A stretch of 64,000 nt of DNA from Bradyrhizobiaceae bacterium PARB1. GTDB taxonomy: Bacteria > Pseudomonadota > Alphaproteobacteria > Rhizobiales > Xanthobacteraceae. The stretch covers positions 124,001 through 188,000 of the forward strand of contig NKIY01000006.1 of the NCBI GenBank assembly GCA_002256345.1. Reading direction: 5' to 3'. The translations under genes were made by a program, and so were the position numbers. The notes below the pieces were generated by a model. That model made no database searches. It was given only the letters and a program-made list of their open reading frames with translations, and had not been told where the DNA came from. Position 1 is the first letter of the stretch. Each line of letters begins with the position of its first letter. Of the stretch, positions 8,303 through 51,848 are shown in pieces.

Positions 8303-9316
8303 TCAGGCCGATTGCGCCATCAGTTCGATCCCGAAGCGCTCTCGGGCGAGCTTTTCCTCCCAGGCGAGCGCGTGGCGGGCGATGGTTTCGAGGTCGTCGT
8401 AAACAGGTGTCCAGTTAAGGGTCGCACGGATGCGCCGGGTGTCGGCGATCATGGTCATGATGTCGCCGTCGCGCCGCGGAGCATATTGGACGGCGAAGTT
8501 GCGACCCGACGCACGGCGCACGGCTTCGATGGTCTCCAGCACCGAATAACCGCGGCCGTAGCCACAATTCAGCGTGGTCGACATGCCGCCGTCGCGCAGA
8601 TAGGCCAGAGCGGCCCGATGCGCCTGGACGAGATCGCTGACATGAATGAAATCGCGGATGCAGCTGCCATCAGCCGTCGGATAATCGGTTCCGTAGACGT
8701 CGATCTTGCTGCGCTGACCGGTGGCGGCTTCGACGGCGATCTTGAGCAGATGCGTGGCACCCATGGTGGCAAGGCCGGTGCGGCCCTGCGGATCGGCGCC
8801 GGCGACGTTGAAGTAGCGCAGCACGACGAATTCCATGCCATAGGCCGGGGCGATGTCGTGCAGCATGATCTCGGTCATTAATTTCGACGACCCATAGGGC
8901 GACAGTGGCCGGGTCGGCGCGTCTTCGGCCACCGGTATGAAATCCGGATTGCCATAGACGGCGGCTGTCGATGAAAAAATGAAGCGTTTGACGCCGCACT
9001 TCACCGCCGCATTGAGCAGGTTGCGCGAGGTCATGGTGTTGTTGCGATAATAGCTGAGCGGATCGCGCATCGATTCCGGAACGACGACCGAACCCGCGAA
9101 ATGGATGATGGCATCGACGCCATGTGCCTGAATCACGCCCTCGACGAGGTTCTCGTCGGCGACGTCGCCGATGAACAATGGCACACCTTCGGGTAGATAG
9201 GTGGAGAAGCCGGTGGACAGATTGTCGATGACAACGACATTCTCGCCGGCTTCCACCAGCGCATGCACCATGTGACTTCCGATATAACCGGCACCGCCGG
9301 TGACCAGAACCGTCAT
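8303..9316 (-). CDS. galE: UDP-glucose 4-epimerase (first copy)
   Basis: Interconverts UDP-glucose and UDP-galactose for envelope polysaccharides. The 337-residue extended SDR shows the NAD-binding TGGAGYIGSH at the N-terminus, VIDNLSTG, IHFAGSVVVPES, the serine region FSSTAAVYG, the catalytic tyrosine-lysine pair in YGSSKLM, and RYFNVAGADP. All of these fit GalE. It converges with the AraC gene (10 bases between stops) and is divergent from the following glycosyltransferase. A second galE lies at 21090-22085. Confidence 0.93.
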   Translation of the reverse strand: MTVLVTGGAGYIGSHMVHALVEAGENVVVIDNLSTGFSTYLPEGVPLFIGDVADENLVEGVIQAHGVDAIIHFAGSVVVPESMRDPLSYYRNNTMTSRNLLNAAVKCGVKRFIFSSTAAVYGNPDFIPVAEDAPTRPLSPYGSSKLMTEIMLHDIAPAYGMEFVVLRYFNVAGADPQGRTGLATMGATHLLKIAVEAATGQRSKIDVYGTDYPTADGSCIRDFIHVSDLVQAHRAALAYLRDGGMSTTLNCGYGRGYSVLETIEAVRRASGRNFAVQYAPRRDGDIMTMIADTRRIRATLNWTPVYDDLETIARHALAWEEKLARERFGIELMAQSA

Positions 9317-9433
9317 GTGGATTGTCTCACTCTCCTGTTTCCGGAGACGATAGACGTTTCGCGATGAAGAGCGGGTTTCGCCACGTGGTTACTGGTCTCT
9401 ATGCTTAATGTTGCGTATAGGAACCGGGGCGAA

Positions 9434-10492
9434 ATGGAGTTCTCTGTGCCGATTGCGGGCAAAACAGTCGGAAAATTGCAGGTGATCATCACCAACCTGC
9501 ATTGGCGCTATTCCGGTGTGACGGCAACCAACCGCATGGTGGCGCCGAAACTCGATGCCATGATTGAGGCCGCGTGGCTGGGTACCGATGCGCCCGATGG
9601 CATCCGGCGCATGGGCTTTGGCGAGTTGCTGACATTGTGGATGCGACGAACCCCGGTCGTTTGGCATGCGCGGCGCAACAACGAGATGATCGTCGGTGTT
9701 CTTCTCCGTGCGCTCGGTTGGCCGCTGAAACTGCTCTTCACCTCAGCCGCACAGCGGCATCACAGCTGGATCACCCGCTGGCTGATCCGCCGCATGGATG
9801 CGATCATCGCGACGTCGGACGCATCGGCGTCCTATCTCAAGCGCGAGGCGACCGTGGTGACGCATGGCGTTGACACGAATCGCTATGCGCCGCCGACCGA
9901 TCGCGCGGCGGCCTTTGCTGAAGGCCAGCTGCCGGGACGCTATGCGATCGGCTGCTTCGGCCGCGTGCGCACGCAGAAGGGCACCGATCTGTTCGTCGAT
10001 GCCATGTGCGTGCTGCTGCCGCGTTATCCGGATTTCAGTGCCGTCATTGTCGGTGCTATCAAGCCGGACCAGATCGGTTTCGCCAGTGAGCTGCGCAGGA
10101 AGATCGCCGCCGCCGGTCTGCAGGATCGCATCGTCATCACCGGCGAATTGCCGATCGAGGAGGTTGAGCGCTGGTATCGCCGTTTGACGGTCTATGCGTT
10201 CACTTCGCGGAACGAGGGTTTTGGGCTCACGCTCATCGAGGCGATGTCGGTCGGCGCTGCGCTCGTCGCGACGCGGGCTGGCGCTGCCGAGATCGCGGTG
10301 GACGATGGCGTCACCGGAACGCTGGTGCCGACCGGCGATGCGAAGGCATTGGCAGATGCGATCGAGCCGCTGATGCGCGATCCGGAAGCTGCACACGCCA
10401 TGGGCGTGCGAGGGCGGCAACGTGTGCTTGATAAATTCAGCCTCGACGCCGAGGCGCGCAACATTGCTGCGGTTTATCGCAGGCTCGTCTGA
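9434..10492 (+). CDS. GT4-family glycosyltransferase
   Basis: A GT-B fold glycosyltransferase of about 352 residues, probably an inner-membrane-associated enzyme of lipopolysaccharide core or polysaccharide assembly. Visible are the N-terminal IITNLHWRYSGVTATNR, the domain-2 start GCFGRVRTQKGTDLFVDA, ITGELPIEEVERWYRR, and the donor-binding E-x7-E motif in NEGFGLTLIEAMSVGAALVAT. It may begin at the ATG on 9401, but 9434 fits the domain better; both have weak ribosome binding sites. Its 3' end overlaps the convergent gmhB-like gene by 19 bases. Donor and acceptor are not determinable. Confidence 0.88.
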   Translation: MEFSVPIAGKTVGKLQVIITNLHWRYSGVTATNRMVAPKLDAMIEAAWLGTDAPDGIRRMGFGELLTLWMRRTPVVWHARRNNEMIVGVLLRALGWPLKLLFTSAAQRHHSWITRWLIRRMDAIIATSDASASYLKREATVVTHGVDTNRYAPPTDRAAAFAEGQLPGRYAIGCFGRVRTQKGTDLFVDAMCVLLPRYPDFSAVIVGAIKPDQIGFASELRRKIAAAGLQDRIVITGELPIEEVERWYRRLTVYAFTSRNEGFGLTLIEAMSVGAALVATRAGAAEIAVDDGVTGTLVPTGDAKALADAIEPLMRDPEAAHAMGVRGRQRVLDKFSLDAEARNIAAVYRRLV

Positions 10493-39129: not shown

Positions 39130-40023
39130 CTATACCTTCGCCTCGAACTCTTCTTTCACCGCCGCGATATCTGTCAGCGTCGGCAGCCCGCTCTCATTGC
39201 CGAGCTTCTGAATCTTGTAGCTCGATGCCGCCCGGGCGAACTGGAAATGCTCCGACCAGCTCGCCCCGGGATTTGCGAGATATGAATACACATAGGCGCC
39301 GTGAAACACGTCGCCGGCGCCATTGGTATCGATCACGCGTTCGCGCGGGATCGGATAAGCAGGCTGCGTGTGCACAGCGCCCGCTTCGTCATACCAGAGC
39401 AGTCCCTTCTCGCCGAGCGTGACACCGCCGACGCGGCAGCCGCGGCCCTTGAGATATTCGAGCATCTTCTCTGGCGTCAGATCCATCTGTTCGCAGAGTC
39501 GCTCGGCGACGATGGCGACATCGATATATTCCAACAGTTCATGCGTATTGGTGCGCAAGCCGCCGCCGTCCAGCGAGGTGAGAATGCCAGCCTCGCGGCA
39601 CAGTTTCGCATAGTGGATCGCAGCATCGGGCTGATGCCCGTCCACATGCAGCGCGCGGCAGGCGCCAAGGTTGAGGAGCGGAAACGGATGGATATGCTCG
39701 TCGTCGCGGCAGCGGACGATGGCGCGTTTGCCGTCCTTCGGCATGATGAAGGACAGTGACGATGACGCCACCTTGCGCGGATGAATCTCGATATTGTATT
39801 TCGCACTCATGTCCATGAACATGCGCCCGAGCCAGTCATTGGCCACGGTGGCGATCAGGTCGGGCACGATACCGAGCTTGGCGCAGCAGAACGCCGCGGT
39901 GACGGCATTGCCACCAAACGACACCGCATAGTCGGAGGCGACATGCTTTTCATCGCCAGTCGGCATATGGTCGGTGATGAAGGTGACGTCGATATAGGTC
40001 TGTCCGATAAAGAGCGCTTTCAT
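39130..40023 (-). CDS. PfkB-family carbohydrate kinase
   Basis: A ribokinase-fold sugar kinase of 297 residues. It has the N-terminal FIGQTYIDVTFITDHMPTGDEKHVA, the glycine-rich FGGNAVTAAFCCAKLG, LDGGGLRTNTHELLEYID, VTLGEKGLLWYD, and the catalytic DTNGAGDVFHGAYVY. The last motif holds the anion hole and base aspartate. The open frame extends to 41166 but overlaps the plus-strand VOC gene and is discarded upstream of the ATG at 40023. It may phosphorylate a keto-deoxy sugar acid or another sugar of the neighbouring pathway; this is an inference. Confidence 0.9.
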   Translation of the reverse strand: MKALFIGQTYIDVTFITDHMPTGDEKHVASDYAVSFGGNAVTAAFCCAKLGIVPDLIATVANDWLGRMFMDMSAKYNIEIHPRKVASSSLSFIMPKDGKRAIVRCRDDEHIHPFPLLNLGACRALHVDGHQPDAAIHYAKLCREAGILTSLDGGGLRTNTHELLEYIDVAIVAERLCEQMDLTPEKMLEYLKGRGCRVGGVTLGEKGLLWYDEAGAVHTQPAYPIPRERVIDTNGAGDVFHGAYVYSYLANPGASWSEHFQFARAASSYKIQKLGNESGLPTLTDIAAVKEEFEAKV

Positions 40024-40269
40024 GAATCCGTCCGTCGCGTCAGGGGGGATGGCGGTACGGCCGCCGGCCTCGGCCACATCGAACAGCTTAACAGCCGCCG
40101 CGCCGCCCGCCATCGAAAATTGTGCGGTGCCGCACGGGCCGCCCGCGAATCCTGTTTGTGCTTCGGTCGTGGCCGCACTGGGGCAATCGCGCAAAGCGGC
40201 TGCGTCGTCTTGACCAGTTGGCCGTAAAAGCTGGCATAGTGGCGCAGCAAGAAACAGGAGGAGAGAACG

Positions 40270-41115
40270 ATGATCACCGGGCTGGATCATGTCGTCATTC
40301 TGCTGAACGATCTGGAGGTGGGCATTGCCACCTACCAGACGTTGTTCTCGCGCAAACCCGCCTGGCGCAGCACCAGCGAGGGCGCCGAGCTTGCGATCTT
40401 CACTCTTGCCAATATGTCCGTCGAACTGATGGCCCCGCATGGCGAGGGCACGGCCGCGACCCGCATCCGCGCGGTGCTGCCGGAAAGCGGCGCCACGCTC
40501 GCCAGCATCTGTTTTGCGACCGATGATATTGCGAAGATGCATCGCCGCCTCGATCGCGTGGCCCTCAAGCCGGATCCCATCACCGAGGTCGAGAGCCGGG
40601 ATCGCGACACCGGCGCCACGTTGTCCTGGAAGCGTACCCGCGCGGCCACCGATCATACCCGCGGCGTGCGCCAGTTCTTCCTTGAGCTGGATGGTGAGCG
40701 CCAGGTTTCGGCCAGTACCAGCAAGACGCCGATCATCGGCCTCGACCACATCGTCGTCGCGACGCAGGACCCCGAACGTGCCGCCGCGCTCTATGGCGCG
40801 CGGCTTGGCCTCGATCTCGCGCTGGATCGCTCCAATCCGGATTGGGGGCACCTGATGTTCTTCCACTGCGGCGATCTCGTCGTCGAACTGGTCAAGCGCC
40901 CGCACGACCAAGGCGACGTCAATCGCGACGTATTGTGGGGCATGACCTGGCGTGTCGCCGATATCGATGCGACGCGCGAACGTCTGCTCGCCGCTCATGT
41001 CACTGTCTCCGAGGTGCGGAGCGGCCGTAAGCCCGGCACCCGTGTCGCCAGCCTGCGCGATGGCACGCTCGGCATTCCGACGCTGCTGATCGAGCGGGAG
41101 GAGAGAGAGGGGTAA
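40270..41115 (+). CDS. Two-domain VOC (glyoxalase/dioxygenase fold) protein
   Basis: A 281-residue protein with two vicinal-oxygen-chelate modules. Each begins with the same signature: GLDHVVILLNDLEVGIATYQTLF (residues about 4-26) and GLDHIVVATQDPERAAALYGARLGLD (about 157-182). Possible metal ligands are the H in LDH and E residues such as VELVKRP. A strong AGGAGGA precedes the ATG. Its function may be lyase, isomerase or resistance type; the sequence does not decide. Confidence 0.88.
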   Translation: MITGLDHVVILLNDLEVGIATYQTLFSRKPAWRSTSEGAELAIFTLANMSVELMAPHGEGTAATRIRAVLPESGATLASICFATDDIAKMHRRLDRVALKPDPITEVESRDRDTGATLSWKRTRAATDHTRGVRQFFLELDGERQVSASTSKTPIIGLDHIVVATQDPERAAALYGARLGLDLALDRSNPDWGHLMFFHCGDLVVELVKRPHDQGDVNRDVLWGMTWRVADIDATRERLLAAHVTVSEVRSGRKPGTRVASLRDGTLGIPTLLIEREEREG

Positions 41116-41141
41116 GATTGCAGGATAGCAGAGCGTAGTCG

Positions 41142-41231
41142 GTAGCCCGGATTGAACGAAGCGCAATCCGGGAACCGGAGCTTCAACTATCTCGGCATCC
41201 CCGCATTACGCTCCGCTCCATGCAGCTACGC
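41142..41231. repeat. Palindromic intergenic repeat after the VOC gene
   Basis: The left part is GTAGCCCGGATTGAACGAAG...CAATCCGGGAAC; the right part, CCCCGCATTACGCTCCGCTCCATGCAGCTAC, is a degenerate inverted copy. It lies between the convergent VOC and TauE/SafE genes. Confidence 0.6.
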
Positions 41232-41241
41232 TCACTGCCGC

Positions 41242-42003
41242 TCATCGCACGAAGTGCGAAATCCCTTGCCACAGCAGCACCAGCGAGATTACCAGCAGCA
41301 TGGCATAGGCGATGTTGTAAAACAGGTCGGTAGGCGTGCGCTTCACCAGCCAGATGCCGGCGAAATTGGTCAGCACGGCCGCGGGCAACAGCAGCAGCGA
41401 TGTCGCGAAATTCGCGGTGTTGAACTGGCCGAGCGCCAGATAGGGCACGATCTTCAGTGCATTCACGATGGCGAAGAAGATCGTCATGGTGCCGACCAGC
41501 ATCAGCTTGGGCAGCCGCTGCGGCAGCACATAGACCTGGAAGGGCGGGCCACCCGCCTGTGTCATGAACGACGTGAAGCCCGAGACTGCACCCCAGAACA
41601 CGCCAGCGGCCGGCCCCATGCGGCGCGGTTCGAGCTGGGCGCGTTTGCGCCAGACATCGATGACGAAAACCAGGCCGATCAGGCCGACGGTGATCCGCAC
41701 CGCATTGTCGGAAATGACGGAGGCGAGCAACCATGCCAGTGCCATGCCGGCGATAGCGCCGGGCAGCATGATCTTCAGGTTTGAGGCGTCCCATTCGCGT
41801 CGATAGACGTAAAGTGAAATCAAATCCTGCGTAATCAGCACCGGCAACAACAATGCTGCAGCTTCGAGCGGTGGTAGATATAGCGCCAGTAGCGGCGTTG
41901 CCGCGATCCCAACCCCGGCAAAGCCGCCCTTGGACAGGCCCAGGAAAAGCACCGCGGGAATGGCGACGACATAGAAAAACGGGTCGGTGATGATGGTAGG
42001 CAC
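41242..42003 (-). CDS. TauE/SafE-family membrane permease
   Basis: A 253-residue inner-membrane protein with seven or eight hydrophobic segments. It has the family signature LFLGLSKGGFAGVGIAATPLLALYLPP near the N-terminus and the repeat-like GFTSFMTQAGGPPFQVYVLPQRL in the second half. Members export sulfite, sulfoacetate or related anions. The neighbouring importer operon uses an SBP family that includes sulfonate-binding proteins, which would be consistent with sulfur-compound traffic, but this link is only suggestive. Confidence 0.9.
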   Translation of the reverse strand: MPTIITDPFFYVVAIPAVLFLGLSKGGFAGVGIAATPLLALYLPPLEAAALLLPVLITQDLISLYVYRREWDASNLKIMLPGAIAGMALAWLLASVISDNAVRITVGLIGLVFVIDVWRKRAQLEPRRMGPAAGVFWGAVSGFTSFMTQAGGPPFQVYVLPQRLPKLMLVGTMTIFFAIVNALKIVPYLALGQFNTANFATSLLLLPAAVLTNFAGIWLVKRTPTDLFYNIAYAMLLVISLVLLWQGISHFVR

Positions 42004-42172: not shown

Positions 42173-42934
42173 TTGGCCAAGAAGCAAACGACCAGGCAAG
42201 CGATCAGGACGAGATCGACCAAGGCGGGCAAGTCGGCAGGCAGGGCCCAGAGGTGGCAGCGGGACCCCGAGGGCATGCGTCTGCGCATCCTGGAGGCGGC
42301 GACGAAGGAATTTGCTGCGCGCGGCTTGGCCGGTGCGCGTGTCGATCGCATCGCAGCGGCTGCCGGCGCCAACAAGCGCATGCTGTACTATCACGTCGGC
42401 AAGAAGGATGATCTCTATCTGGCAGTGCTGGAAGGCACCTATGCCAAGATTCGTGCAGAGGAGCGCACGCTCGATCTCGAGCATCTCGATCCGCCGGAAG
42501 CGATCGAGAGCCTGATCACCTTCACCTGGAACTACTTCATCCGTAATCCGGAATTCCTCGCGCTGCTCAACACCGAGAATCTGGAGCGCGCCAAGCACAT
42601 CAAGCGTTCCGACAAAGTGAAGTCGATGCATTCGCCATTTGTGGAGATGATCCGCCAGGTCGTCGTGCGCGGCGTCGCGTCCGGCGACTTCAAGGTCGCG
42701 ATGGATCCTGTTCAGCTCTACATCTCCATCGCCGGCCTCAGCTTCTTCTATATCGGCAACAATGCGACGCTCAGCGTCATCTTCGGCCGCGATCTCCTGG
42801 CTAAGGACGCCAAGGACGAGCGGCTGGCGCATATGGTGTCGCTCATTCTCGGAGCCTTGACCGGGCGCTCGCCCGCGGAATTTCCGGTGCCGAGAACTCA
42901 GCCTGTCATCCCTGCGAAAGCGGGAATTCAGTAA
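42173..42934 (+). CDS. TetR/AcrR-family regulator, likely controller of the adjacent ABC/catabolic operon
   Basis: About 253 residues. The helix-turn-helix domain covers about residues 30-85 (MRLRILEAATKEFAARGLAGARVDRIAAAAGANKRMLYYHVGKKDDLYLAVLEG). An all-helical ligand domain follows (FTWNYFIRNPEFLALLNTENLERAKHIK). The TTG at 42173 (LAKKQTTRQ) is preferred because GGGA lies upstream and the protein length then fits; an ATG at 42056 would add 39 unlike residues. The last nine residues, VIPAKAGIQ, are encoded by a dispersed repeat that has run into the gene's end. A palindromic operator lies about 135 bases downstream, before the next operon. Confidence 0.85.
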   Translation: MAKKQTTRQAIRTRSTKAGKSAGRAQRWQRDPEGMRLRILEAATKEFAARGLAGARVDRIAAAAGANKRMLYYHVGKKDDLYLAVLEGTYAKIRAEERTLDLEHLDPPEAIESLITFTWNYFIRNPEFLALLNTENLERAKHIKRSDKVKSMHSPFVEMIRQVVVRGVASGDFKVAMDPVQLYISIAGLSFFYIGNNATLSVIFGRDLLAKDAKDERLAHMVSLILGALTGRSPAEFPVPRTQPVIPAKAGIQ

Positions 42935-43068: not shown

Positions 43069-43100
43069 CTGATTGACAAGTCAATCAGTGTGGCTAGTAT
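43069..43100 (+). promoter_or_regulatory. Promoter with overlapping palindromic operator for the ABC/catabolic operon
   Basis: The 20-base palindrome CTGATTGACAAGTCAATCAG (43069-43088) has perfect 9-base arms around a 2-base centre. It contains a perfect -35 box TTGACA (43073-43078), followed after 16 bases by TAGTAT (43095-43100) as the -10 box. Repressor binding here would block RNA polymerase. The TetR gene just upstream is the obvious candidate. Confidence 0.75.
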
Positions 43101-43192
43101 TTATCCAGTGAGTTAATTACGACTGCGAAGCCGGCCGATCGAGCTAGCCAACCAAACAGGCCAATGAAAACCGGCAATGGGAGACGAGACGC

Positions 43193-44002
43193 GTGAGTGA
43201 GAAAAAGGCGCCAGGGGCAGTTACCAGACTGCTGAATTCTTCGTGGCTGCGCCCGTTCATATTCCTGCTTTTCATCATCGCTGCATGGGATCTATCGATC
43301 CGCATTTTCGGCATTCCGGCCTATCAGATCCCGGCGCCGATGGATGTGGTGAAGGTGTTGATCTCCGACTGGCCCGAACTCCTCTCGCAGTCGTGGCCGA
43401 CGACCTATGCGACGCTGCTCGGCTTCCTCGCGTCCGCCGTGTTCGGGATTCCGATCGCGATGCTGATTGCGGGCTCGCGCACCGTCGAAAGCTACGTCTA
43501 TCCGCTGCTCGTGTTTTCTCAGTCGATCCCGAAGGTCGCCATCGCGCCGCTTTTTGTGGTGTGGTTCGGCTTCGGCATCATCCCGAAAATCATCTCGGCC
43601 TTCCTGCTCGGCTTCTTCCCCGTCGTCGTTTCTGCGGTGCAGGGCTTCAAGTCGGTCGATCCCGATATGGTCGATCTCGCCCGCGCGATGAAGGGTAGCC
43701 GCATGCGCGTGTTCTGCGCGGTGAACCTGCCGCATGCCCTGCCGGCGATCTTCTCGGGCCTCAAGGTCTCGGTCACGCTCGCTGTTGTCGGCGCCGTCGT
43801 CGGCGAATTCGTCGGCTCCAATTCCGGCATCGGCTACGTGCTGCAGCGGTCCATCGGCACCTTCGACTTGCCGACCATGTTCGCGGCCCTCGTTATTCTC
43901 GCGCTGCTCGGCGTCATCCTGTTCTGGATCGTCGATCGCATCGAGAAGATTGCGATTCCGTGGCACGTCAGCCAGCGCGCTGATGTTTTCGTCGCGTCCT
44001 GA
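43193..44002 (+). CDS. ABC transporter permease (SsuC/TauC/ThiX type)
   Basis: A 269-residue inner-membrane permease with six hydrophobic segments, forming a dimeric channel with the ATPase encoded two genes on. Typical features are FLASAVFGIPIAMLIAGSRTVESYVYPLLVFSQSIPKVAIAPLFVVWFGFG, the EAA-type loop ARAMKGSRMRVFCAVNLPHALPAIFSGLK, and GEFVGSNSGIGYVLQ. The start is GTG with GGGAG about 9 bases upstream. It is the first gene of the seven-gene operon running to 50580. The family carries sulfonates, pyrimidines, riboflavin, phthalates and others. Confidence 0.93.
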   Translation: MSEKKAPGAVTRLLNSSWLRPFIFLLFIIAAWDLSIRIFGIPAYQIPAPMDVVKVLISDWPELLSQSWPTTYATLLGFLASAVFGIPIAMLIAGSRTVESYVYPLLVFSQSIPKVAIAPLFVVWFGFGIIPKIISAFLLGFFPVVVSAVQGFKSVDPDMVDLARAMKGSRMRVFCAVNLPHALPAIFSGLKVSVTLAVVGAVVGEFVGSNSGIGYVLQRSIGTFDLPTMFAALVILALLGVILFWIVDRIEKIAIPWHVSQRADVFVAS

Positions 44003-44072
44003 TTGGACGCCAATATCCAAAAGCGGCCCGGCTGAACGGGCCGCCATCACCTGCTTCAATGGGAGGCTGACT

Positions 44073-45065
44073 ATGCTGAAATGGGTTACCGCCGTATCCA
44101 CTGCCGCGATCGCTGCGACGATCGCCTTCACCGCGCCGGCCGCTGCCGCCGACAAGGTGACGCTGATGCTCAACTGGTATGTCTATGGCGAGCATGCGCC
44201 GTTCTATTACGGCAAGGCCAAGGGTATCTATGCCGCTGAAGGCATCGATCTCGACATACAGGAAGGCCGTGGTTCGGCCGCCACCGTGCAGGCCGTCGCT
44301 GCCAAGACCGTGAATTTCGGCTATGCCGACGTCCCGACCATGATGCGCGCCGCCGTGAAGGGCGCTCCGGTGGTCGCCACCGGCGTGCTGCTGCAGACCA
44401 CGGCCATGTCGGCCATGGGCTTCGTCGACAAGAACATCAAGAAGGCCGAGGACCTGAAGGGCAAGACGGTGGCGATCACGCCAGCCGACGCGCTTACACA
44501 GATCTGGCCGCTGTTCCTGAAGAAGGCCGGCCTCAAGGAATCCGATCTCAAGACCGTCGCCGGCGATGCACAGACCAAGCTGAACGCCGTCATCAACGGC
44601 CAGGCCGACGTGCTGTTGGGCTACGTCATGGACCAGTCCATGAAGATCAAGGACGCCACCGGCAAGGACGTCAATACGATCAAGTTCGCCGACTACGGCA
44701 TCCATCTCGTCTCGTCGGGCATCATCGCCAACACCGACTGGGCCAAGGCCAATCCGGATCTCGTCAAGCGCTTCATGAAGGCGACCATTAAGGCCGTCGA
44801 GGAAGCCCAAAAGGATCCGAAGGCTGCCGCGCAGTCGATCCTCGATGCCAATCCGAAGGGCGGCAAGATCGATACCCTGACCCAGGGCTTCGAACTCACC
44901 ACCCAGTTCTACAAGACGCCGGAAACCAAGAACAAGCCGGTGTTCAGCGTCACCGACCAGAACATGAAGGAGTCGGTGGAACTGATGGTCGAGTATGGCG
45001 GTCTGGAAGCGAAGGCCAAAGAGAATCCGAAGGCCTTCTACACCAACGACTATCTGCCGAAGTAA
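44073..45065 (+). CDS. ABC substrate-binding protein, NMT1/THI5-like (SsuA/TauA fold)
   Basis: A 330-residue periplasmic solute receptor. The signal peptide ends near APAAAA (about residue 25). The mature protein starts KVTLMLNWYVYGEHAPFYYGKAKGIYAAEGIDLDIQEGRGSAATVQAVAA, the NMT1 pattern, followed by FGYADVPTMMRAAVKGAPVVATG and a lobe-2 region with SSGIIANTDWAKANPDLVKRFMKATIKA. GGGAGG lies 6 bases before the ATG. The ligand cannot be read, but NLNW-type entries are shared with pyrimidine and sulfonate receptors. It delivers substrate to the permease and ATPase encoded on either side. Confidence 0.93.
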   Translation: MLKWVTAVSTAAIAATIAFTAPAAAADKVTLMLNWYVYGEHAPFYYGKAKGIYAAEGIDLDIQEGRGSAATVQAVAAKTVNFGYADVPTMMRAAVKGAPVVATGVLLQTTAMSAMGFVDKNIKKAEDLKGKTVAITPADALTQIWPLFLKKAGLKESDLKTVAGDAQTKLNAVINGQADVLLGYVMDQSMKIKDATGKDVNTIKFADYGIHLVSSGIIANTDWAKANPDLVKRFMKATIKAVEEAQKDPKAAAQSILDANPKGGKIDTLTQGFELTTQFYKTPETKNKPVFSVTDQNMKESVELMVEYGGLEAKAKENPKAFYTNDYLPK

Positions 45066-45087
45066 GCGCAAGCGAACAGGAAGACTG

Positions 45088-45945
45088 ATGACTGCAACGA
45101 TGAAAGCCACGAGCCACATGAGCGTCGATCAACCCAGCGCGCATCTTCGTGTCGTGTCGGAGCAGCCGCAAAACGCGGCGTCGGGGATCAATCTCTCCGG
45201 CGTCTCCAAGACCTACGGGACCGGCGACGGCAAGGTGCAGTCGCTGCGTCCTTTGGATTTTCACATCAATGACGGCGAGTTCTTTGTCGTGGTCGGCCCG
45301 TCCGGCTGCGGCAAGTCCACGCTGCTCAAGATGATCTCGGGCCTGTTGCCGCCGACCACCGGCGAAATCCGCGTCGATGGCAACAAGGTCACCGAGCCTC
45401 ATGGCGATGTCGGCATCGTATTTCAGAATGCGCTGCTGCTGCCGTGGCGGAACATTCTCAACAACGTGCTGATGCCCATCGATATGAAGGGCGAGAAGCG
45501 CGAAAAGTACATTCCGCGCGCCAAAGAACTGCTCAAGATGGTCGGCCTCGAAGGTTTCGAGAAGAAGTTGCCGTGGCAGCTGTCCGGCGGCATGCAGCAG
45601 CGCGCCTCGATCTGCCGTGCGCTGGTGCACGATCCCAAGATCATGATGATGGACGAGCCCTTTGGCGCGCTCGATGCCATGACGCGGGAGAAGATGAATG
45701 TCGAGCTGTCGCGCATCCAGCGCCGCACCGGCAAGACCATTTTGCTGATCACCCATTCGATCCCGGAAGCGGTTTTCTTGGCCGACAAGGTGCTGGTCAT
45801 GACCGAGCGCCCCGGCGGTATCGCGGCCATCTATGACGTGCCGCTCGGCCGCGATCGCAATCTCGATGTGATGTCGAACCCGATCTTCACCGATCTCGTC
45901 GCCCGCATCCGCAAGCATTTCATGACCAACAGCGCGCTGGACTGA
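45088..45945 (+). CDS. ABC transporter ATP-binding protein (SsuB/TauB type)
   Basis: A 285-residue ATPase with Walker A GPSGCGKST, a Q-loop in FQNALLLPWRN, signature LSGGMQQRASICRALVHDP, Walker B IMMMDEPFGALD and the switch histidine in LLITHSIPEAVF. The N-terminal 40 residues are a poorly conserved extension. The chosen ATG at 45088 has AGGAAG five bases upstream; a second in-frame ATG is 5 codons later. It powers the import system formed with the two preceding genes. The next gene begins 6 bases after the stop. Confidence 0.95.
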   Translation: MTATMKATSHMSVDQPSAHLRVVSEQPQNAASGINLSGVSKTYGTGDGKVQSLRPLDFHINDGEFFVVVGPSGCGKSTLLKMISGLLPPTTGEIRVDGNKVTEPHGDVGIVFQNALLLPWRNILNNVLMPIDMKGEKREKYIPRAKELLKMVGLEGFEKKLPWQLSGGMQQRASICRALVHDPKIMMMDEPFGALDAMTREKMNVELSRIQRRTGKTILLITHSIPEAVFLADKVLVMTERPGGIAAIYDVPLGRDRNLDVMSNPIFTDLVARIRKHFMTNSALD

Positions 45946-45950
45946 AGCCG

Positions 45951-47354
45951 TTGAACACCGCACCACGTATTGCCCTGCGAGATATCACGCTGTTCGAGCG
46001 CCCGACGGCGTTCGTGCGGCCGTTTCGCTTCGGCAGCGTAACGGTTCATGCGGCGCCGCAGGCTTTCATACGCGTCGAGCTCGAGGTCGAGGGCAGGGGC
46101 GTGTTCGTCGGTGCCTCCGCCGAGCTCATGGTGCCAAAATGGTTCGACAAGCGGCCCCATCTTGCCATTGATGACACGGTGAACGAGCTGCGCCAGTCGC
46201 TGGCGATCGCGAAGGATCTCTATCGCGCGCAGTCCGGTTACATCACGGCTTTCGGCCTGCATGCCGCCTGTGTCGGCGCGCAGATGCAGGCCTGCGCCGC
46301 ACGCGACATTCCTCTGCTCGCCGCCGCTTTCGGTCCCGCCGAGATCGACAAGGCCGTTCTTGATGCTTTGCTCCGTGGTCTCGGTACCGATTTCTTCATC
46401 GGCATGAAGGCGAATGTCGCCGGCCTCACGCCACGTCTCGCGCCCGATCTCGGCGCCGATGACATCGCGACGTTCCTTGCCAGCCGCGAGTGCCTGCCGC
46501 GTGTCGCGCTGCGCCACACCGTCGGCCTCGACGATGTGGTCGAAGGCGAGGGCGGTGTCGCCGATCCCACTGAGAATTCCGGCGCGCGCTACTTCAAGCT
46601 GAAGATGAATGGCGATCCAGACGCGGATGCCATCAGGCTGACGCGCATCGGCAACGCGCTAACGACGCTGCCTTACGATTATCAGGTCACGCTCGACGCC
46701 AATGAGCAATATGCCGATCTGCAAGCGCTCTGCACGCTCGTCGATCGCCTCGACAAGGACACAGCACTCGCGCCGATCGCATCAAAACTGCTCTATATCG
46801 AGCAGCCGATGCCGCGCGATATCACGCGCGAACAGCCGCTCGGTTTGCTCAGCTCGCGCTCCTTCATCATCGACGAAGCCGATGATAGCTGGGACGCATT
46901 CCCCGCTGCCAAACAGCTGGGCTATCGCGGCATCTCGTCAAAATCCTGCAAGGGGTTTTACAAGTCCATCGCCAATGCCACCCGCGCCGCCGCGTGGAGC
47001 GCGCAAGGCACGCCGCATTTTATCACCGGCGAGGATCTCACCTGCCAGGCCGGCCTTGGCGTGCAGCAGGATCTCGCGCTCGGCGCGTTGATCGGCGTCA
47101 CCCATGCCGAGCGCAACGGCCATCACTATGTCGATGGCTTTGGCTTCGCGCCCGCTGGCGAGGCGGAAGCCTTCTTAGCTGCGCATCCCGATCTCTACAG
47201 CCGCGATGAAGATTTCATCCGTCTGCAGATCAATGACGGCGATCTCCTTACGGGATCGCTCACCACTCCCGGATTTGCATCCGGCGCACATCCGGACTGG
47301 ACGGCAATGACGCCGCTCGCAGTCCCTCAAACTAAAGTTCTTCAGGAGTCCTGA
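45951..47354 (+). CDS. Enolase-superfamily enzyme (mandelate racemase/muconate lactonizing-like)
   Basis: A 467-residue protein with the enolase-superfamily ligand set. The K-x-K catalytic pair is in YFKLKMNGDP. Metal ligands are in VTLDANEQY, LLYIEQPMPRD and FIIDEADDS, and a late lysine is in YRGISSKSCKGF, which resembles the MLE/dipeptide-epimerase arrangement. It is longer than usual (350-400), with an extended N-terminus and C-terminus. Superfamily members dehydrate acid sugars or epimerise at the carbon next to a carboxylate. The start is TTG with almost no ribosome binding site, 6 bases after the ATPase stop, so coupling is likely. The substrate is unknown. Confidence 0.85.
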   Translation: MNTAPRIALRDITLFERPTAFVRPFRFGSVTVHAAPQAFIRVELEVEGRGVFVGASAELMVPKWFDKRPHLAIDDTVNELRQSLAIAKDLYRAQSGYITAFGLHAACVGAQMQACAARDIPLLAAAFGPAEIDKAVLDALLRGLGTDFFIGMKANVAGLTPRLAPDLGADDIATFLASRECLPRVALRHTVGLDDVVEGEGGVADPTENSGARYFKLKMNGDPDADAIRLTRIGNALTTLPYDYQVTLDANEQYADLQALCTLVDRLDKDTALAPIASKLLYIEQPMPRDITREQPLGLLSSRSFIIDEADDSWDAFPAAKQLGYRGISSKSCKGFYKSIANATRAAAWSAQGTPHFITGEDLTCQAGLGVQQDLALGALIGVTHAERNGHHYVDGFGFAPAGEAEAFLAAHPDLYSRDEDFIRLQINDGDLLTGSLTTPGFASGAHPDWTAMTPLAVPQTKVLQES

Positions 47355-47356
47355 CT

Positions 47357-48508
47357 ATGGCTGTCCACCGCCTTGGCATTATCATGAACGGCATCACCGG
47401 CCGTATGGGTCTCAACCAGCATCTGATCCGCTCGATCGTTGCGATCCGCGCGCAGGGCGGTGTCACGCTGAAGAACGGCGATCGCATGATGCCGGATCCG
47501 ATCCTGGTCGGCCGCAATGCCGAGAAGATCGAAGGCCTCGCAAAACGTTTCGGCATCGAGCGCTGGACCACCGATCTCGACAAGGCGCTGCAGGATCCGA
47601 ACGACACCATCTTCTTCGACGCCGCCACCACCCAGGCGCGTCCGGGCCTGCTGCAAAAGGCCATCGCCGCCGGCAAGCACATCTATTGCGAGAAGCCGAT
47701 CGCGACCAATCTCGCCGAAGCCATCGACGTCATCAAGGTCGCCAACGCCAAGGGCCTCAAGCACGGCACCGTGCAGGACAAGCTGTTCCTGCCCGGCCTG
47801 AAGAAGCTCGCGATGCTGCGCGATAGTGGCTTCTTCGGCCGCATGCTCTCGGTGCGCGGTGAGTTCGGTTACTGGGTGTTCGAAGGCGACTGGCAGGAAG
47901 CCCAGCGCCCGTCCTGGAACTATCGCGCCGAAGACGGCGGCGGCATGATCCTCGATATGGTCTGCCACTGGCGCTACGTGCTCGACAATCTGTTCGGTGA
48001 GGTCGAGAGCCTCACCTGCCTCGGCACCACCGACATCCCGGCGCGCTGGGACGAGCAGGGCAAGGAATACAAGGCGACCGCCGACGACTCGGCCTATGCC
48101 ACCTTCAAGCTGAAGGGCGGCGTTATTGCTCACATGAACATGTCCTGGGCCACCCGCGTCTATCGCGATGACCTCGTCACCTTCCAGGTTGATGGCACCC
48201 ACGGTTCGGCCGTCGCCGGTCTCACCGAATGCATGATCCAGGCCCGTCAGGCCACGCCGCGTCCGGTCTGGAATCCCGACGAGAAGCGCACCCACGACTT
48301 CTACGGTGACTGGCAGAAGGTTCCGGACAACGCCGTCTATGACAACGGCTTCAAGGAGCAGTGGGAAATGTTCATCCGTCACGTCTGCGAGGACGCGCCG
48401 TATAAATACACGCTGCTCGAAGGCGCCAAGGGCGTGCAGACGGTGGAAGCCGCATTGCAGAGCTGGAAGGAGCGTCGCTGGGTCGACGTTCCCGCACTCA
48501 AGGTCTGA
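47357..48508 (+). CDS. Gfo/Idh/MocA-family oxidoreductase
   Basis: A 383-residue NAD(P)-dependent dehydrogenase. The N-terminus LGIIMNGITGRMGLNQHL is the cofactor site, with GxxGRM rather than the commoner GxGxxG. HIYCEKPIATN has the family EKP motif, and DMVCHWRYVLDNLFG replaces the usual DxxxH catalytic stretch. Members oxidise a sugar or cyclitol hydroxyl to a keto group. AGGAG lies 8 bases upstream of the ATG, 2 bases after the preceding stop. It is part of the catabolic operon. Confidence 0.9.
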   Translation: MAVHRLGIIMNGITGRMGLNQHLIRSIVAIRAQGGVTLKNGDRMMPDPILVGRNAEKIEGLAKRFGIERWTTDLDKALQDPNDTIFFDAATTQARPGLLQKAIAAGKHIYCEKPIATNLAEAIDVIKVANAKGLKHGTVQDKLFLPGLKKLAMLRDSGFFGRMLSVRGEFGYWVFEGDWQEAQRPSWNYRAEDGGGMILDMVCHWRYVLDNLFGEVESLTCLGTTDIPARWDEQGKEYKATADDSAYATFKLKGGVIAHMNMSWATRVYRDDLVTFQVDGTHGSAVAGLTECMIQARQATPRPVWNPDEKRTHDFYGDWQKVPDNAVYDNGFKEQWEMFIRHVCEDAPYKYTLLEGAKGVQTVEAALQSWKERRWVDVPALKV

Positions 48509-48517
48509 GGTCTCGTC

Positions 48518-49714
48518 ATGAACAAGCCAGTCCAGTCCACCACCGGCTCATCGCTGTCGCTGAAGCTGCCGACCGCCGATCGCAGCATCGAGACCTATCG
48601 TCTCGCGGCCTCGCGTTCGTTCCCGGCCAAGCTGAGCGGCACGCTCAATCGCGTCGCCTTTTCGGCGGCGCATGTGGTGGCCGATCCGCTCGCCGAATGC
48701 GATCCGTGGCTCAATCAGGCCATCGATTGGGACAAGACCATCGCATTCCGTGAGCATGTGTGGGATCTCGGCCTCGGCGTCGCCGAAGCCATGGATACTG
48801 CCCAGCGCGGCATGGGTCTGGACTGGCCGACCTCGCTCGAACTGATCACGCGCTCGGTGAATGCCGCAAAGCCCCGCAATGGCCTCGTGTTCTCCGGCGC
48901 CGGCACCGACCACCTCGCGGTGGAAGATGCAAAATCCATCGACGACGTCATCAAGGCTTACGAACAGCAGTTCGAAGCCATTGAGAAAGTCGGCGGCCGC
49001 ATCATCCTGATGGCGTCGCGCGCGCTCGCCAAGATCGGCAAGAACGCGGACGACTACGCCAAGGTCTATGACCGCATCCTGTCGCAGTCGCAGAACCCGG
49101 TGATCATCCACTGGCTCGGCGACATGTTCGATCCCGCGCTTACCGGTTACTGGGGCACGGCCGATCTCGGCAAGGCGATGGACACCGCAACGGACGTCAT
49201 CAACCGCAACGCCGCCAAGGTCGATGGCGTAAAAATCTCGCTGCTCGATGCGCAGCGCGAGATCGACATGCGCCGTCGCCTCAAGCCCGAAGTGAAGATG
49301 TATACCGGCGACGACTTCAACTATGCCGAGCTGATCGCCGGCGACGACAAGGGCTATTCCCACGCGCTGCTCGGCATCTTCGATGCCATCGCGCCGGCCG
49401 CATCCTATGCGCTGTCGCGTCTCGCGGCGGGCGACGAGGCCGGCTTCCATGATGTGCTCGGCCCGACGGTGCCGCTGTCGCGTCACATCTTCAAGGCGCC
49501 GACACGCTTCTACAAGACCGGCATCGTCTTCATGGCCTATCTCAATGGCCATCAGGATCACTTCACCATGATCGGCGGCCAGGAGAGCACACGCTCCACC
49601 CAGCATCTCGCCGAACTATTCCGCCTCGCCGACAAGGCCGGCCTGCTTGCCAATCCAGAGCTTGCAGTTGCGCGCATGAAGTCCGTCATGGCCACGCGCG
49701 GGATCGATGCCTGA
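48518..49714 (+). CDS. DUF993 protein (dihydrodipicolinate synthase/aldolase-like)
   Basis: A 398-residue protein of the DUF993 family, usually labelled dihydrodipicolinate-synthase-like. Runs seen are RVAFSAAHVVADPLAECDPWLNQAIDWD, HVWDLGLGVAEAMDTAQRGMGLDW, NPVIIHWLGDMFDPALTGYWG and KVDGVKISLLD, where the lysine in GVKIS is the candidate Schiff-base residue by analogy with class I aldolases. No biochemical role is known to me. Position after a dehydrogenase and an enolase-type enzyme suggests that it cleaves a keto-deoxy intermediate. It is 9 bases from the previous gene and 2 from the next. Confidence 0.85.
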   Translation: MNKPVQSTTGSSLSLKLPTADRSIETYRLAASRSFPAKLSGTLNRVAFSAAHVVADPLAECDPWLNQAIDWDKTIAFREHVWDLGLGVAEAMDTAQRGMGLDWPTSLELITRSVNAAKPRNGLVFSGAGTDHLAVEDAKSIDDVIKAYEQQFEAIEKVGGRIILMASRALAKIGKNADDYAKVYDRILSQSQNPVIIHWLGDMFDPALTGYWGTADLGKAMDTATDVINRNAAKVDGVKISLLDAQREIDMRRRLKPEVKMYTGDDFNYAELIAGDDKGYSHALLGIFDAIAPAASYALSRLAAGDEAGFHDVLGPTVPLSRHIFKAPTRFYKTGIVFMAYLNGHQDHFTMIGGQESTRSTQHLAELFRLADKAGLLANPELAVARMKSVMATRGIDA

Positions 49715-49716
49715 TC

Positions 49717-50580
49717 ATGCGTGACTTTTCCAAAGACCATCGCTGGCTGTCGCTCAACACGGCGACAGTCCGCAAGCAGGGCGACTTTGTTGCCATCACT
49801 GAAGCCTGTGCCCGTCACAAGATCCGCGGCGTCTCGCCGTGGCGCGATCAGGTCGCGTATGTCGGCCTCGATCGTGCCGTGAAGGCGGTGAAGGACCACG
49901 ATCTCGAACTGTCCGGCTATTGTCGCGGCGGCATGTTCGTGGCCGATGCCGCGCATCGCCAGGCCGAGCGCGACGACAACAAGCGTTGCGTCGATGAAGC
50001 CGTGGCGCTGGGCTCGCCCTGCATCGTGCTGGTCGTCGGCGGCCTGCCGCAATATTCGCGGCCGGGCAGCGTGACGTCGAAGGACATCATCGATGCCCGC
50101 AACCAGGTCGATGACGGCATCGCAGCGATGCTCGACTATGCGAAGCAGGCGAAGATGCCGCTGTCCATCGAGCCGCTGCATCCCGCTTACGCCGCCGACC
50201 GCGCCTGCGTGAACACCACGGAACAGGCGCTCGACATCTGCGATCGCCTCGATCCCAACCGCACCGGCATGCTCGGCGTCGCGCTCGACGTCTATCACAT
50301 CTGGTGGGACCCGGAGATGCTTCCGCAGATCGCGCGCGCCGGAAAGGATCGCCTGCACGCCTTCCATGTCTGCGACTGGATGGTGCCGACCAAGGACATC
50401 CTCAACGACCGCGGCATGATGGGCGACGGCGTCATCGACATTCGCGCTGCGCGCGCGGCCGTCGAGGCGCAGGGCTTTGCCGGTTACTGCGAGATCGAGA
50501 TTTTCTCGGAGCACTGGTGGAGCAAGCCGATGGACGAGGTGCTGCAGACCTGCATCGAGCGCCACAAAACCGTGGTGTGA
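49717..50580 (+). CDS. Sugar phosphate isomerase/epimerase-like TIM barrel (AP endonuclease family 2)
   Basis: A 287-residue xylose-isomerase-like TIM barrel. Candidate metal ligands lie in LSIEPLHPAYAADRACVNT (Glu), GVALDVYHIWWDPEM (Asp, His), LHAFHVCDWMVP (His, Asp) and the C-terminal CEIEIFSEHWWSKP (Glu). Family members isomerise or epimerise sugars, inosose or hydroxypyruvate, or dehydrate inosose. It closes the operon, following DUF993 after 2 bases. The substrate is unknown. Confidence 0.9.
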   Translation: MRDFSKDHRWLSLNTATVRKQGDFVAITEACARHKIRGVSPWRDQVAYVGLDRAVKAVKDHDLELSGYCRGGMFVADAAHRQAERDDNKRCVDEAVALGSPCIVLVVGGLPQYSRPGSVTSKDIIDARNQVDDGIAAMLDYAKQAKMPLSIEPLHPAYAADRACVNTTEQALDICDRLDPNRTGMLGVALDVYHIWWDPEMLPQIARAGKDRLHAFHVCDWMVPTKDILNDRGMMGDGVIDIRAARAAVEAQGFAGYCEIEIFSEHWWSKPMDEVLQTCIERHKTVV

Positions 50581-50786: not shown

Positions 50787-51848
50787 ATGGCGGCGCCGAT
50801 CCCGGTCTTCGATGGCCATAACGATGTCCTGCTGCGCCTCTACCAATCGACATCGCCTGACCCTGTCGCAGATTTTCTGGCCGGTGAACGGGCAGGGCAT
50901 ATCGATCTGAAGAAAGCCAAAGCGGGATCATTCGCTGGCGGTCTGTTCGCGATGTTTTCGCCGGTCGTCGAAAAGACCGATGGTTTTTTCGATGCGATGA
51001 ACGGCGGCGCATATGCGCTGCCGCTTCCGGAACCTTTGTCGCTCGAAGAGGGGCGGAGGTCGGTGGTCGGCGAATTAGCGATCCTGCTTCGGTTGGTGCG
51101 CGTGTCGCAAGGTGCGGTGGCGATCTGCACCACCGCTGCCGAAATCCGCGCTGCTATGGCGCGCGGTGCGCTCGCAGTGGTCCTCCATCTGGAAGGCGCG
51201 GAAGCGATCGATGGCGATCTGAGATTCCTCGAGATTTTGTATGCGGCGGGCCTGCGCTCGCTCGGGCCGGTATGGAGCCGGAGCAATATCTTTGGCCACG
51301 GCGTACCATTCCATTTTCCTGCAGGGCCTGATCTCGGGGACGGTCTCACTGCGGCTGGCGAGCGGCTGATCGCCGCGTGTAACGAAATGAAGATCATGAT
51401 CGATCTGTCGCATATCACTGAGAAAGGGTTCTGGGATGTCGCGCGCCTCAGCAAGGCGCCGCTGGTCGCCACGCATTCCAATGCGCATGCGCTTTGTCCG
51501 TCGCCACGAAACCTGACCGACCGGCAACTCGCCGCAATCCGAGACACGCAAGGCATGGTGGGCCTCAACTTCGCGACCTGCTTTTTGCGTTCCGACGGCA
51601 GCATGAGCGCCGACACCGATATCGCACTGATGGTCGAGCAGATCGATTATCTGATGACGAAGGTCGGTGAGGATCACGTCGGCCTTGGATCGGATTTTGA
51701 CGGGGCGATTGTGCCGAGCGTTATTGGCTCGGCTGCTGGCCTGCAGACATTGTTCGCAGCGCTGCGGCGAAAGGGCTATTCAGAAGCTGTACTAACCAAG
51801 CTTGGATCTACCAACTGGCTCAATTTGCTACAGCGGACGATCGGCTGA
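50787..51848 (+). CDS. Membrane dipeptidase (renal dipeptidase, peptidase M19) homologue
   Basis: A 353-residue amidohydrolase-fold peptidase of family M19. Metal and active-site elements seen are FDGHNDVLLRL (HxD), VVLHLEGAEAI (bridging Glu), MIDLSHITEKGFWDV, LVATHSNAHALCPSPRNLTDRQL and HVGLGSDFDGA. It cleaves dipeptides, often with a D-residue, or related beta-amino bonds. No secretion signal or lipid-attachment cysteine is visible, so a cytoplasmic location is likely in spite of the family name. It starts at an ATG 206 bases after the operon and may be separately expressed. Confidence 0.92.
   Translation: MAAPIPVFDGHNDVLLRLYQSTSPDPVADFLAGERAGHIDLKKAKAGSFAGGLFAMFSPVVEKTDGFFDAMNGGAYALPLPEPLSLEEGRRSVVGELAILLRLVRVSQGAVAICTTAAEIRAAMARGALAVVLHLEGAEAIDGDLRFLEILYAAGLRSLGPVWSRSNIFGHGVPFHFPAGPDLGDGLTAAGERLIAACNEMKIMIDLSHITEKGFWDVARLSKAPLVATHSNAHALCPSPRNLTDRQLAAIRDTQGMVGLNFATCFLRSDGSMSADTDIALMVEQIDYLMTKVGEDHVGLGSDFDGAIVPSVIGSAAGLQTLFAALRRKGYSEAVLTKLGSTNWLNLLQRTIG

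Follow-up and report, generated by a model that had tools for sequence, protein, structure and literature searches.

Organization of the operon

Positions 43193–50580 of a 64,000-nucleotide stretch of the Bradyrhizobiaceae bacterium PARB1 genome (positions 124,001 to 188,000 of contig NKIY01000006.1, assembly GCA_002256345.1; hereinafter, the window, to which all coordinates below refer) encompass seven genes that an earlier note, made from the sequence alone, had described as a single operon for import and catabolism built around a DUF993 protein. All seven genes are present, every one of them on the plus strand, and the families that had been proposed for six of the products agree with the Pfam assignments. 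A gene for a TetR-family regulator, not mentioned in that note, adjoins the operon on the 5' side.

42275..42934, plus strand: TetR-family regulator (Pfam TetR_N and TetR_C_29), 5' of the operon
43193..44002, plus strand: ABC permease of the Tau/Ssu/Ntr type, GTG start (Pfam BPD_transp_1)
44103..45065, plus strand: periplasmic NMT1/THI5-like substrate-binding protein (Pfam NMT1)
45088..45945, plus strand: ABC ATPase of the Tau/Ntr type, ATG at 45088 (Pfam ABC_tran)
45951..47354, plus strand: enolase-superfamily protein with a predicted muconate-lactonizing-type active site, an optional part of the system, TTG start
47357..48508, plus strand: Gfo/Idh/MocA dehydrogenase (Pfam GFO_IDH_MocA; solved relative 3oqb)
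48518..49714, plus strand: DUF993 protein, predicted to be a remote relative of the dihydrodipicolinate synthase (DHDPS)-like barrels (Pfam, 626 bits; solved relative 4dnh)
49717..50580, plus strand: xylose-isomerase-like TIM barrel (Pfam AP_endonuc_2; solved relatives 3ju2, named SMc04130, and 3qc0)

The last five genes are tightly packed, with intergenic gaps of 22 bases between the genes for the substrate-binding protein and the ATPase, 5 between the ATPase and the enolase-like protein, 2 between the latter and the Gfo protein, 9 between the Gfo protein and DUF993, and 2 between DUF993 and the isomerase. The gap between the permease and the substrate-binding protein is 100 bases if the latter starts at 44103, a start that, along with the signal peptide, was chosen by eye within an open frame beginning at 43734. 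The start of the TetR gene was taken from the gene call in a relative (L002), and its open frame extends back to 42056. Both DUF993 and the enolase-like protein are encoded in a single copy in the 6.95-Mb genome.

Conservation of gene order and modular variation

A scan of 84,980 species genomes for DUF993 yielded at least 596 confirmed stretches, from which the best 80 were fetched, a selection biased toward close relatives. Among these best 80, all seven genes are found in the same order and on one strand in 54 loci, and the Gfo, DUF993 and isomerase genes are adjacent in this order in 75; some of the remaining 26 loci are cut by a contig end or had one gene split in the search. The full-order loci come from 8 named families (36 from Nitrobacteraceae, 4 each from Azospirillaceae and Methylobacteriaceae, 3 from Xanthobacteraceae, 1 from each of four others, and 3 that lack a family name), with DUF993 identity down to 65%; the nearest named genus among the matches to the DUF993 locus of the window is Tardiphaga. 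Because the full order recurs across so many families, it reflects more than chance, and the concern that the arrangement might be confined to this genome is dispelled. The gene set is conserved in many soil and plant-associated bacteria.

Two overlapping draws of genomes were scanned for the DUF993 family (PF06187), which was detected in 24 of 299 at the level of the phylum and 73 of 249 at the level of the order; it was not found in 14 control genomes. Every full-length match from both draws other than that of the window itself, after five fragments or weak rows had been dropped beforehand, makes up a sample of 83 loci, in which partners were counted within 8 kb of DUF993 using profiles built from these same loci. 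The partners counted are the isomerase (55 loci), Gfo and TetR (46 each), short-chain dehydrogenases/reductases (SDR; 23), CoA-transferase (22) and the enolase-like protein (21). The isomerase accompanies Gfo in all 46 Gfo loci, and both accompany the enolase-like gene in all 21 loci where it occurs. The importers in the 46 Gfo loci are diverse: 18 are of the tripartite tricarboxylate class, 13 of the NMT1 type and 6 are sugar ABC transporters, the other 9 being of various kinds. Given these partner counts, the core of the system in the Gfo branch is the Gfo-DUF993-isomerase triad, and the importer and the enolase-like protein are replaceable.

Outside this branch, DUF993 keeps different company. 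In one set of loci, it is found with an acyl-CoA dehydrogenase and an SDR, in several cases together with CoA-transferase, enoyl-CoA hydratase or electron-transfer flavoproteins; in another, with two GMC oxidoreductases and an SDR; and in yet another, with LacI and CoA-transferase, mostly along with a second Gfo gene. When mapped on a tree of 92 DUF993 proteins (built by a quick method with support from the Shimodaira–Hasegawa-like approximate likelihood ratio test only; L141 was omitted as too short), the partner types are clustered, requiring 10 changes compared to a mean of 31.6 after shuffling, a difference to which near-copies contribute. The DUF993 protein of the window lies well within the main Gfo branch, and three actinobacterial Gfo-linked copies and one from Erwinia fall outside it.

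Several additional associations were noticed in these neighborhoods. Components of a second module, namely a DHDPS-like protein, an NAD-dependent epimerase, a PhyH dioxygenase, a methionine-synthase-II-like protein and extra NMT1 importer parts, adjoin DUF993 genes in several distant genomes (loci L104, L136, L145, L073, L107 and L066), in differing subsets. A sugar ABC importer and at least one further Gfo gene are repeatedly located near DUF993 systems that have different main importers (L039–L042, L079, L085, L103, L106 and L111). In L090, genes annotated as the alpha and beta subunits of NAD(P) transhydrogenase follow the Gfo-DUF993-isomerase triad, and genes of the same clusters are found in L064 and L065, a hint that the pathway faces a difficulty of cofactor balance.

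Upstream of the TetR gene, the region 39130–42003 includes a ribokinase-like PfkB gene on the minus strand, with an NCBIfam score under the cut-off, and a plus-strand gene that by reading resembles the VOC/glyoxalase family, without a family call; likely counterparts of these two genes (clusters 8 and 9) were identified in 37 and 36 of 153 loci, respectively. The operon is followed by a gene for a membrane dipeptidase (peptidase M19; 50787–51848) that was not found in the other loci compared.

The core enzymes and the enolase-like protein

The Gfo protein retains the active-site residues characteristic of its family. The E-K-P lysine and the D-x3-H signature constitute the active-site motif of Gfo/Idh/MocA enzymes, and the corresponding E112 and K113, as well as D200 and H204, are present in all 117 rows of the alignment, with the Pfam models scoring over the cut-off. 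Xylose-isomerase-like enzymes bind metal through an E/D/H/E set; metal-ligand-like positions in the isomerase are E152, found in 122 of 122 rows, and H217, in 121 of 122, and the other two ligand candidates (in VALDVYH and CEIEIFS) were placed by eye only. A Gfo protein that is 54.5% identical over 99% of that of the window is encoded at 8378–9538 of MT835659.1, a record labeled Bacteriophage sp. from human faeces, which is probably bacterial DNA.

The assignment of the product of 45951–47354 to the enolase superfamily proved right, with the MR_MLE_C score of 21.2 bits falling below the Pfam cut-off of 29.4 and a family profile supporting the call. A single-sequence search retrieved no solved structure at E-values up to 0.1, and a profile of 34 relatives matched dipeptide epimerases, chloromuconate cycloisomerases and N-acylamino acid racemases (best E-value 3e-7). 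In the resulting alignments, K216-x-K218, D249, E284 and D308/E309 fall on the active site of 3rit and 3s5s, and the last lysine region (K331/K334) aligns with 3s5s; each of these positions is conserved in 83 of 83 rows. The protein is accordingly predicted to have an active site of the muconate-lactonizing type (Lys-x-Lys ... Lys). The role of sugar-acid dehydratase that had been suggested for it is not supported, given that the predicted active site belongs to the muconate-lactonizing subgroup, that the nearest relatives are dipeptide epimerases and cycloisomerases, and that the gene is optional. In Rhizobium, relatives encoded outside DUF993 loci adjoin genes of the KduI/IolB family, for a GH39 hydrolase and for a 2-hydroxyacid dehydrogenase, and one from a haloarchaeon is located near a heparinase II/III protein.

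For DUF993, the closest solved structure and the only close one in the single-sequence search is 4dnh. At E-values up to 0.001, PF06187 is the sole family listed, with no match to PF00701; DHDPS entries appear at E-values of 0.12 to 0.19. A more sensitive comparison of the DUF993 profile with seven DHDPS paralogs from the same genome produced a match with an E-value of 6e-6 and a probability of 85% over 195 columns. In this alignment, and by alignment only, Lys239 (in KVDGVKIS) coincides with the GVKD lysine in strand 6 of DHDPS; the weak single-sequence DHDPS match is compatible with the same register, judged from the match start alone. Lys239, His198, Asp93, Thr94, Gln96 and Arg97 are each found in 182 of 182 rows, near-copies included. 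A passage of PMC9795676 describes the conserved lysine of the DHDPS family as forming a Schiff base. The proposal that DUF993 could be a Schiff-base lyase thus finds support in the remote profile match and in the invariant lysine in the appropriate position.

A candidate operator upstream of the operon

Three features precede the permease gene.

43069..43088, no strand: perfect 9-bp inverted repeat CTGATTGAC-AA-GTCAATCAG, overlapping the -35 hexamer
43073..43100, plus strand: promoter-like site TTGACA-16-TAGTAT
43101..43116, no strand: candidate TetR operator TTATCCAGTGAGTTAA (consensus TTAACC-N4-GGTTAA, with two mismatches here)

The region contains 3 promoter-like sites compared to 2.3 expected, and the hexamer match is by itself no evidence of a promoter. 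In an alignment of 10 upstream regions, from Nitrobacteraceae and one near relative, the block from the -10 element onward (GTATTTATCCA) shows no variation and reads as an imperfect palindrome. The TetR gene is accompanied by a conserved operator-like palindrome located just after the -10 element of the putative operon promoter.

When no more than one mismatch was allowed, a search for TTAACC-N4-GGTTAA yielded 54 sites in 183 loci (3.5 Mb); 53 of these precede a gene of the system by less than 300 bp, the exception being in L129. The same search with the core written backward gave 6 sites, 3 of them upstream, and 40 permuted cores gave means of 3.5 sites and 1.1 upstream. The single exception among the controls, which tells against the operator reading, is the permuted core ACCATT (ACCATT-N4-AATGGT), with 46 sites, 31 of them upstream. 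Shared promoter ancestry therefore inflates operator-site counts, and the ACCATT pattern may represent either another conserved element or simply common ancestry. Bradyrhizobium, Rhodopseudomonas and near relatives account for 40 of the 54 sites; among the other 14, 13 of which are upstream, are perfect copies in Azospirillum as well as sites in Microvirga and Betaproteobacteria, and the gene that comes next is variously that of the permease, TctC, Gfo or TetR.

In whole genomes, a degenerate version of the palindrome occurs once per genome, at the operon, in 7 of 12 genomes (Azospirillum, Bradyrhizobium and Rhodopseudomonas); four have none, and in G526 there are two sites elsewhere, in surroundings that look unrelated. 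The backward control pattern is matched once in 2 of the 12. The search for a regulon in these seven genomes recovered no second operator target and hence no further pathway genes. In the 6.95-Mb genome of PARB1, the pattern of the copy at 43101 is matched exactly nowhere else; when one mismatch was tolerated, the backward control matched more often than the operator pattern.

The TetR protein likely binds the candidate operator TTAACC-N4-GGTTAA, and because the latter directly follows the -10 element, repression at the start site is likely. This operator candidate is new here; a literature search with the operator letters and TetR terms found no paper. The best NCBIfam match of the regulator is RutR, at 54.4 bits compared to a cut-off of 368. 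The palindrome overlapping the -35 hexamer (CTGATTGACAAGTCAATCAG) was also considered as a general operator and rejected, its core TTGAC-N2-GTCAA being present in 0 of 183 loci; the nearest relative (L037) retains an imperfect form, and this palindrome is an oddity of the lineage of the window.

Importers and the probable class of substrate

Collectively, the observations above support the original description of an operon for import and catabolism. The earlier proposal that the ligand is no plain sugar but probably an acid is in line with the predominance of tricarboxylate and NMT1 importers over sugar ABC transporters in the Gfo loci. The tripartite tricarboxylate importer class favors carboxylates, which is why an acid is suggested. 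The receptor, the permease and the ATPase all score under the NCBIfam cut-offs for taurine and aliphatic sulfonate transporters.

The neighborhoods of other DUF993 loci provide several leads. In a Sinorhizobium locus, the sugar-binding protein encoded beside DUF993 is close to YesO (E-value 1.5e-56) and to 2uvg–2uvj, which presumably bind pectin fragments. DUF2264, presumably a glucuronidase family (a literature search found no paper on it), is encoded near DUF993 in L096, by annotation, and in L079, by Pfam, with a protein of the L079 cluster also found in L111. Genes annotated as kdgD and mandelate racemase are located near L089. A further uronate lead is the pairing of the KduI/IolB and GH39 genes with an enolase-like relative noted above. 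Taken together, these leads weakly favor a uronic or related acid; the links to pectin and uronic acids are suggestive only. Of 20 plasmid loci chosen for viewing, 7 encode an annotated glycerate kinase within 8 kb of DUF993, two of the 7 being the same S. meliloti region in two strains. Glycerate as a general end product was rejected, given that no more than 3 loci in the sample of 83, all from one branch, have the kinase nearby, and is kept as a lineage-level hint.

A putative pathway and its alternatives

The picture that emerges from the comparisons is of a three-enzyme core (Gfo, DUF993 and the xylose-isomerase-like protein) to which an enolase-superfamily protein is added in some loci, the importers being interchangeable. 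We propose, at the level of reaction types, the following scheme for this apparently locally regulated operon. A sugar-derived carboxylic acid would enter the cell through the NMT1-type ABC importer (in many other genomes, through a tripartite tricarboxylate transporter), and the acid or a derivative would bind TetR and lift repression. The Gfo enzyme would use NAD(P) to oxidize a secondary hydroxyl, yielding a ketone, and the metal-dependent isomerase would move or epimerize the carbonyl. Lys239 of DUF993 would then form a Schiff base with the ketone, leading to breakage of a C–C bond (retro-aldol cleavage) or to dehydration of the substrate, with His198 acting as the proton carrier in place of the aldolase tyrosine. 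The products would be small acids or aldehydes; because annotated glycerate kinase genes adjoin these genes in some lineages, D-glycerate or its precursor is a likely product there. The muconate-lactonizing-type protein probably would epimerize or cycloisomerize a second form of the substrate and feed it into the core. The substrate class that best fits the neighborhoods, and the weak step of the scheme, would be a uronic or aldonic acid from plant polysaccharide. In its entirety, including the retro-aldol cleavage by DUF993, this is the best explanation that we can offer, and we put it forward tentatively, considering it somewhat short of evenly probable. A bolder reading, more speculative again although still a possibility to be taken seriously, is that DUF993 represents a new class of Schiff-base C–C lyases (Lys239, with His198 for Tyr) that would serve as a hub common to four or more separate modular pathways (with Gfo and the isomerase; with SDR together with acyl-CoA dehydrogenase; with oxidases of the GMC and SDR types; and with CoA-transferase genes), all fed by plant-derived sugar acids that known pathways cannot use.

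Apart from the ACCATT control and the scarcity of glycerate kinases in the sample, a number of observations weigh against the scheme with retro-aldol cleavage. There is no aldehyde dehydrogenase or kinase within the operon of the window; no such Gfo partner is encoded nearby in 37 of the 83 sample loci; and the scheme leaves unexplained the DUF993 branches with acyl-CoA dehydrogenase, CoA-transferase and enoyl-CoA hydratase. The uronate leads come from single loci or related genomes, and the pathway is a sketch of reaction types in which substrate, product and activity are all inferred. With respect to DUF993 itself, the apparent link to DHDPS is remote, and the hits that follow 4dnh in the single-sequence search are to designed helical-repeat proteins (residues 121–190, E-values of 5e-6 and up), which outscore DHDPS and presumably are compositional. 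The position of the catalytic tyrosine of aldolases is occupied by His198 in 182 of 182 rows. The GxxGE motif, named as the substrate-binding motif of DHDPS, is replaced by D93-T-A-Q-R97 with invariant D, T, Q and R, as read by extending by eye a profile alignment that starts at residue 100. These two replacements are in line with a rival explanation in which DUF993 would be a Schiff-base dehydratase or isomerase rather than a C–C lyase, with the resulting keto-deoxy acid entering central metabolism via enzymes encoded outside the operon. In a DHDPS-family dehydratase described in part of PMC9795676, loss of the tyrosine accompanies loss of cleavage, so that only dehydration takes place; C–C cleavage by DUF993 may therefore be wrong. 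Nevertheless, the core already includes an isomerase and, in part of the loci, an enolase-superfamily protein, and the glycerate kinases beside some loci point to C3 products; we consider this alternative unlikely, albeit the strongest of the competing explanations.

The other alternatives concern the substrate. In a variant pathway of inositol (cyclitol) catabolism, the Gfo protein would be an inositol dehydrogenase and the barrel an inosose isomerase/dehydratase, with DUF993 opening or cleaving a later intermediate. Next to 3oqb, the closest relatives of the Gfo protein among the named solved structures are scyllo-inositol/L-glucose dehydrogenases, its best NCBIfam match is IolG, and the isomerase matches IolI with an E-value of 1e-6; yet the IolG score is 70.9 bits compared to a cut-off of 355, none of iolD, iolB and iolC is among the ten window proteins scanned (the scan was limited to these), and tricarboxylate-type importers fit acids better; we consider this variant improbable. 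We assign a still lower probability to the use of sulfonates, in which the NMT1 receptor would import a sulfonated sugar acid and TauE would export sulfite or a sulfonated product. What survives of the earlier suggestion of a sulfonated ligand is the resemblance of the receptor, permease and ATPase to Ssu/Tau parts, the TauE gene at 41242–42003 of the window (Pfam), and a more distant TauE, picked up by Pfam although not by the search with the TauE of the window, that precedes the Gfo-DUF993-isomerase triad in L102, from one other family, with members of the same cluster in L105 and L152. Against it, the kind of TauE found in the window occurs in 2 of 153 loci, both from Tardiphaga, no desulfonating enzyme is recognized in the operon by Pfam, and all equivalog cut-offs are missed, those for taurine and sulfonate importers included. 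Least probable of all appears to be the salvage of a pyrimidine or thiamine precursor, with uptake through the NMT1/THI5 receptor under the control of a RutR-like regulator: named solved structures closest to the receptor include the hydroxymethylpyrimidine (HMP)-related THI5/THI13 and a formyl-aminopyrimidine-binding protein, and RutR is the best match of TetR, but the four enzymes belong to sugar-acid families and a tricarboxylate transporter is encoded in 18 of the 33 sample Gfo loci that lack an NMT1 importer.

Relationship to known systems and implications

The oxidative uronate pathway involves uronate dehydrogenase, galactarolactone cycloisomerase and KdgD, and shares with the operon a common logic of a dehydrogenase, an enolase-superfamily protein and a DHDPS-like enzyme. 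It differs in that the dehydrogenase of the operon belongs to another family, its enolase-like protein has a predicted active site of the muconate-lactonizing type, DUF993 takes the place of KdgD, and there is an additional isomerase and no semialdehyde dehydrogenase. The iol system similarly combines a Gfo/Idh/MocA dehydrogenase with a xylose-isomerase-like barrel, whereas the Gfo protein of the operon is far under the IolG cut-off, the iolD/B/C genes are missing among the window proteins scanned and, to our knowledge, the DUF993 step has no counterpart in inositol catabolism. With the Tau/Ssu/Thi-type ABC importers, the operon shares an NMT1 receptor with a permease and an ATPase of the same class; unlike in those systems, the parts miss all curated cut-offs and are replaced elsewhere by tricarboxylate or sugar ABC transporters. 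With the DHDPS/NAL family (PF00701; e.g., KDG aldolase, 5-keto-4-deoxyglucarate dehydratase and aldopentonate dehydratase), the likeness amounts to the remote profile match with the Schiff-base lysine in register, from which DUF993 departs by the invariant His in place of Tyr, DTxQR in place of GxxGE, and an extra conserved C-terminal part. The close relatives of DUF993, Gfo and the isomerase in the PDB (4dnh, 3oqb and 3ju2/3qc0, respectively) carry names without a specific function.

In agreement with the earlier note, no described pathway with this gene set was found, as checked against the libraries used here. Literature searches in a library of 5.39 million papers found none naming DUF993, PF06187, IPR009334, COG3802 or two locus tags, an absence that is not absence from print; nothing on-topic for the codes 4dnh, 3oqb, 3ju2 and 3qc0; and no paper on the gene set, on six SMa14xx tags or on 7VPF. 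In Sinorhizobium meliloti, SMc04132 and SMc04133 appear as table entries in a section on PhaR and gene expression of PMC12542648, and SMc04134 is mentioned as a regulator in a passage of PMC11387232. Because 3ju2 is named SMc04130 and 4dnh matches the Sinorhizobium copy of DUF993, we infer that SMc04132 and SMc04133 are DUF993 and its Gfo partner.

The operon, then, is real and widely kept, and no characterization of it was found. The chemistry of DUF993 is now testable. A solved structure of the family exists, for which no reported function was found in the literature search. The operon itself offers a direct route to the substrate through the receptor, which can reveal the ligand, the TetR/operator pair, which can serve as a reporter, and three enzymes with crystallized relatives. 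Should DUF993 prove to be a lyase that relies on an unusual catalytic pair, the sugar-acid catabolism of rhizobia and other soil bacteria would gain a reaction type.

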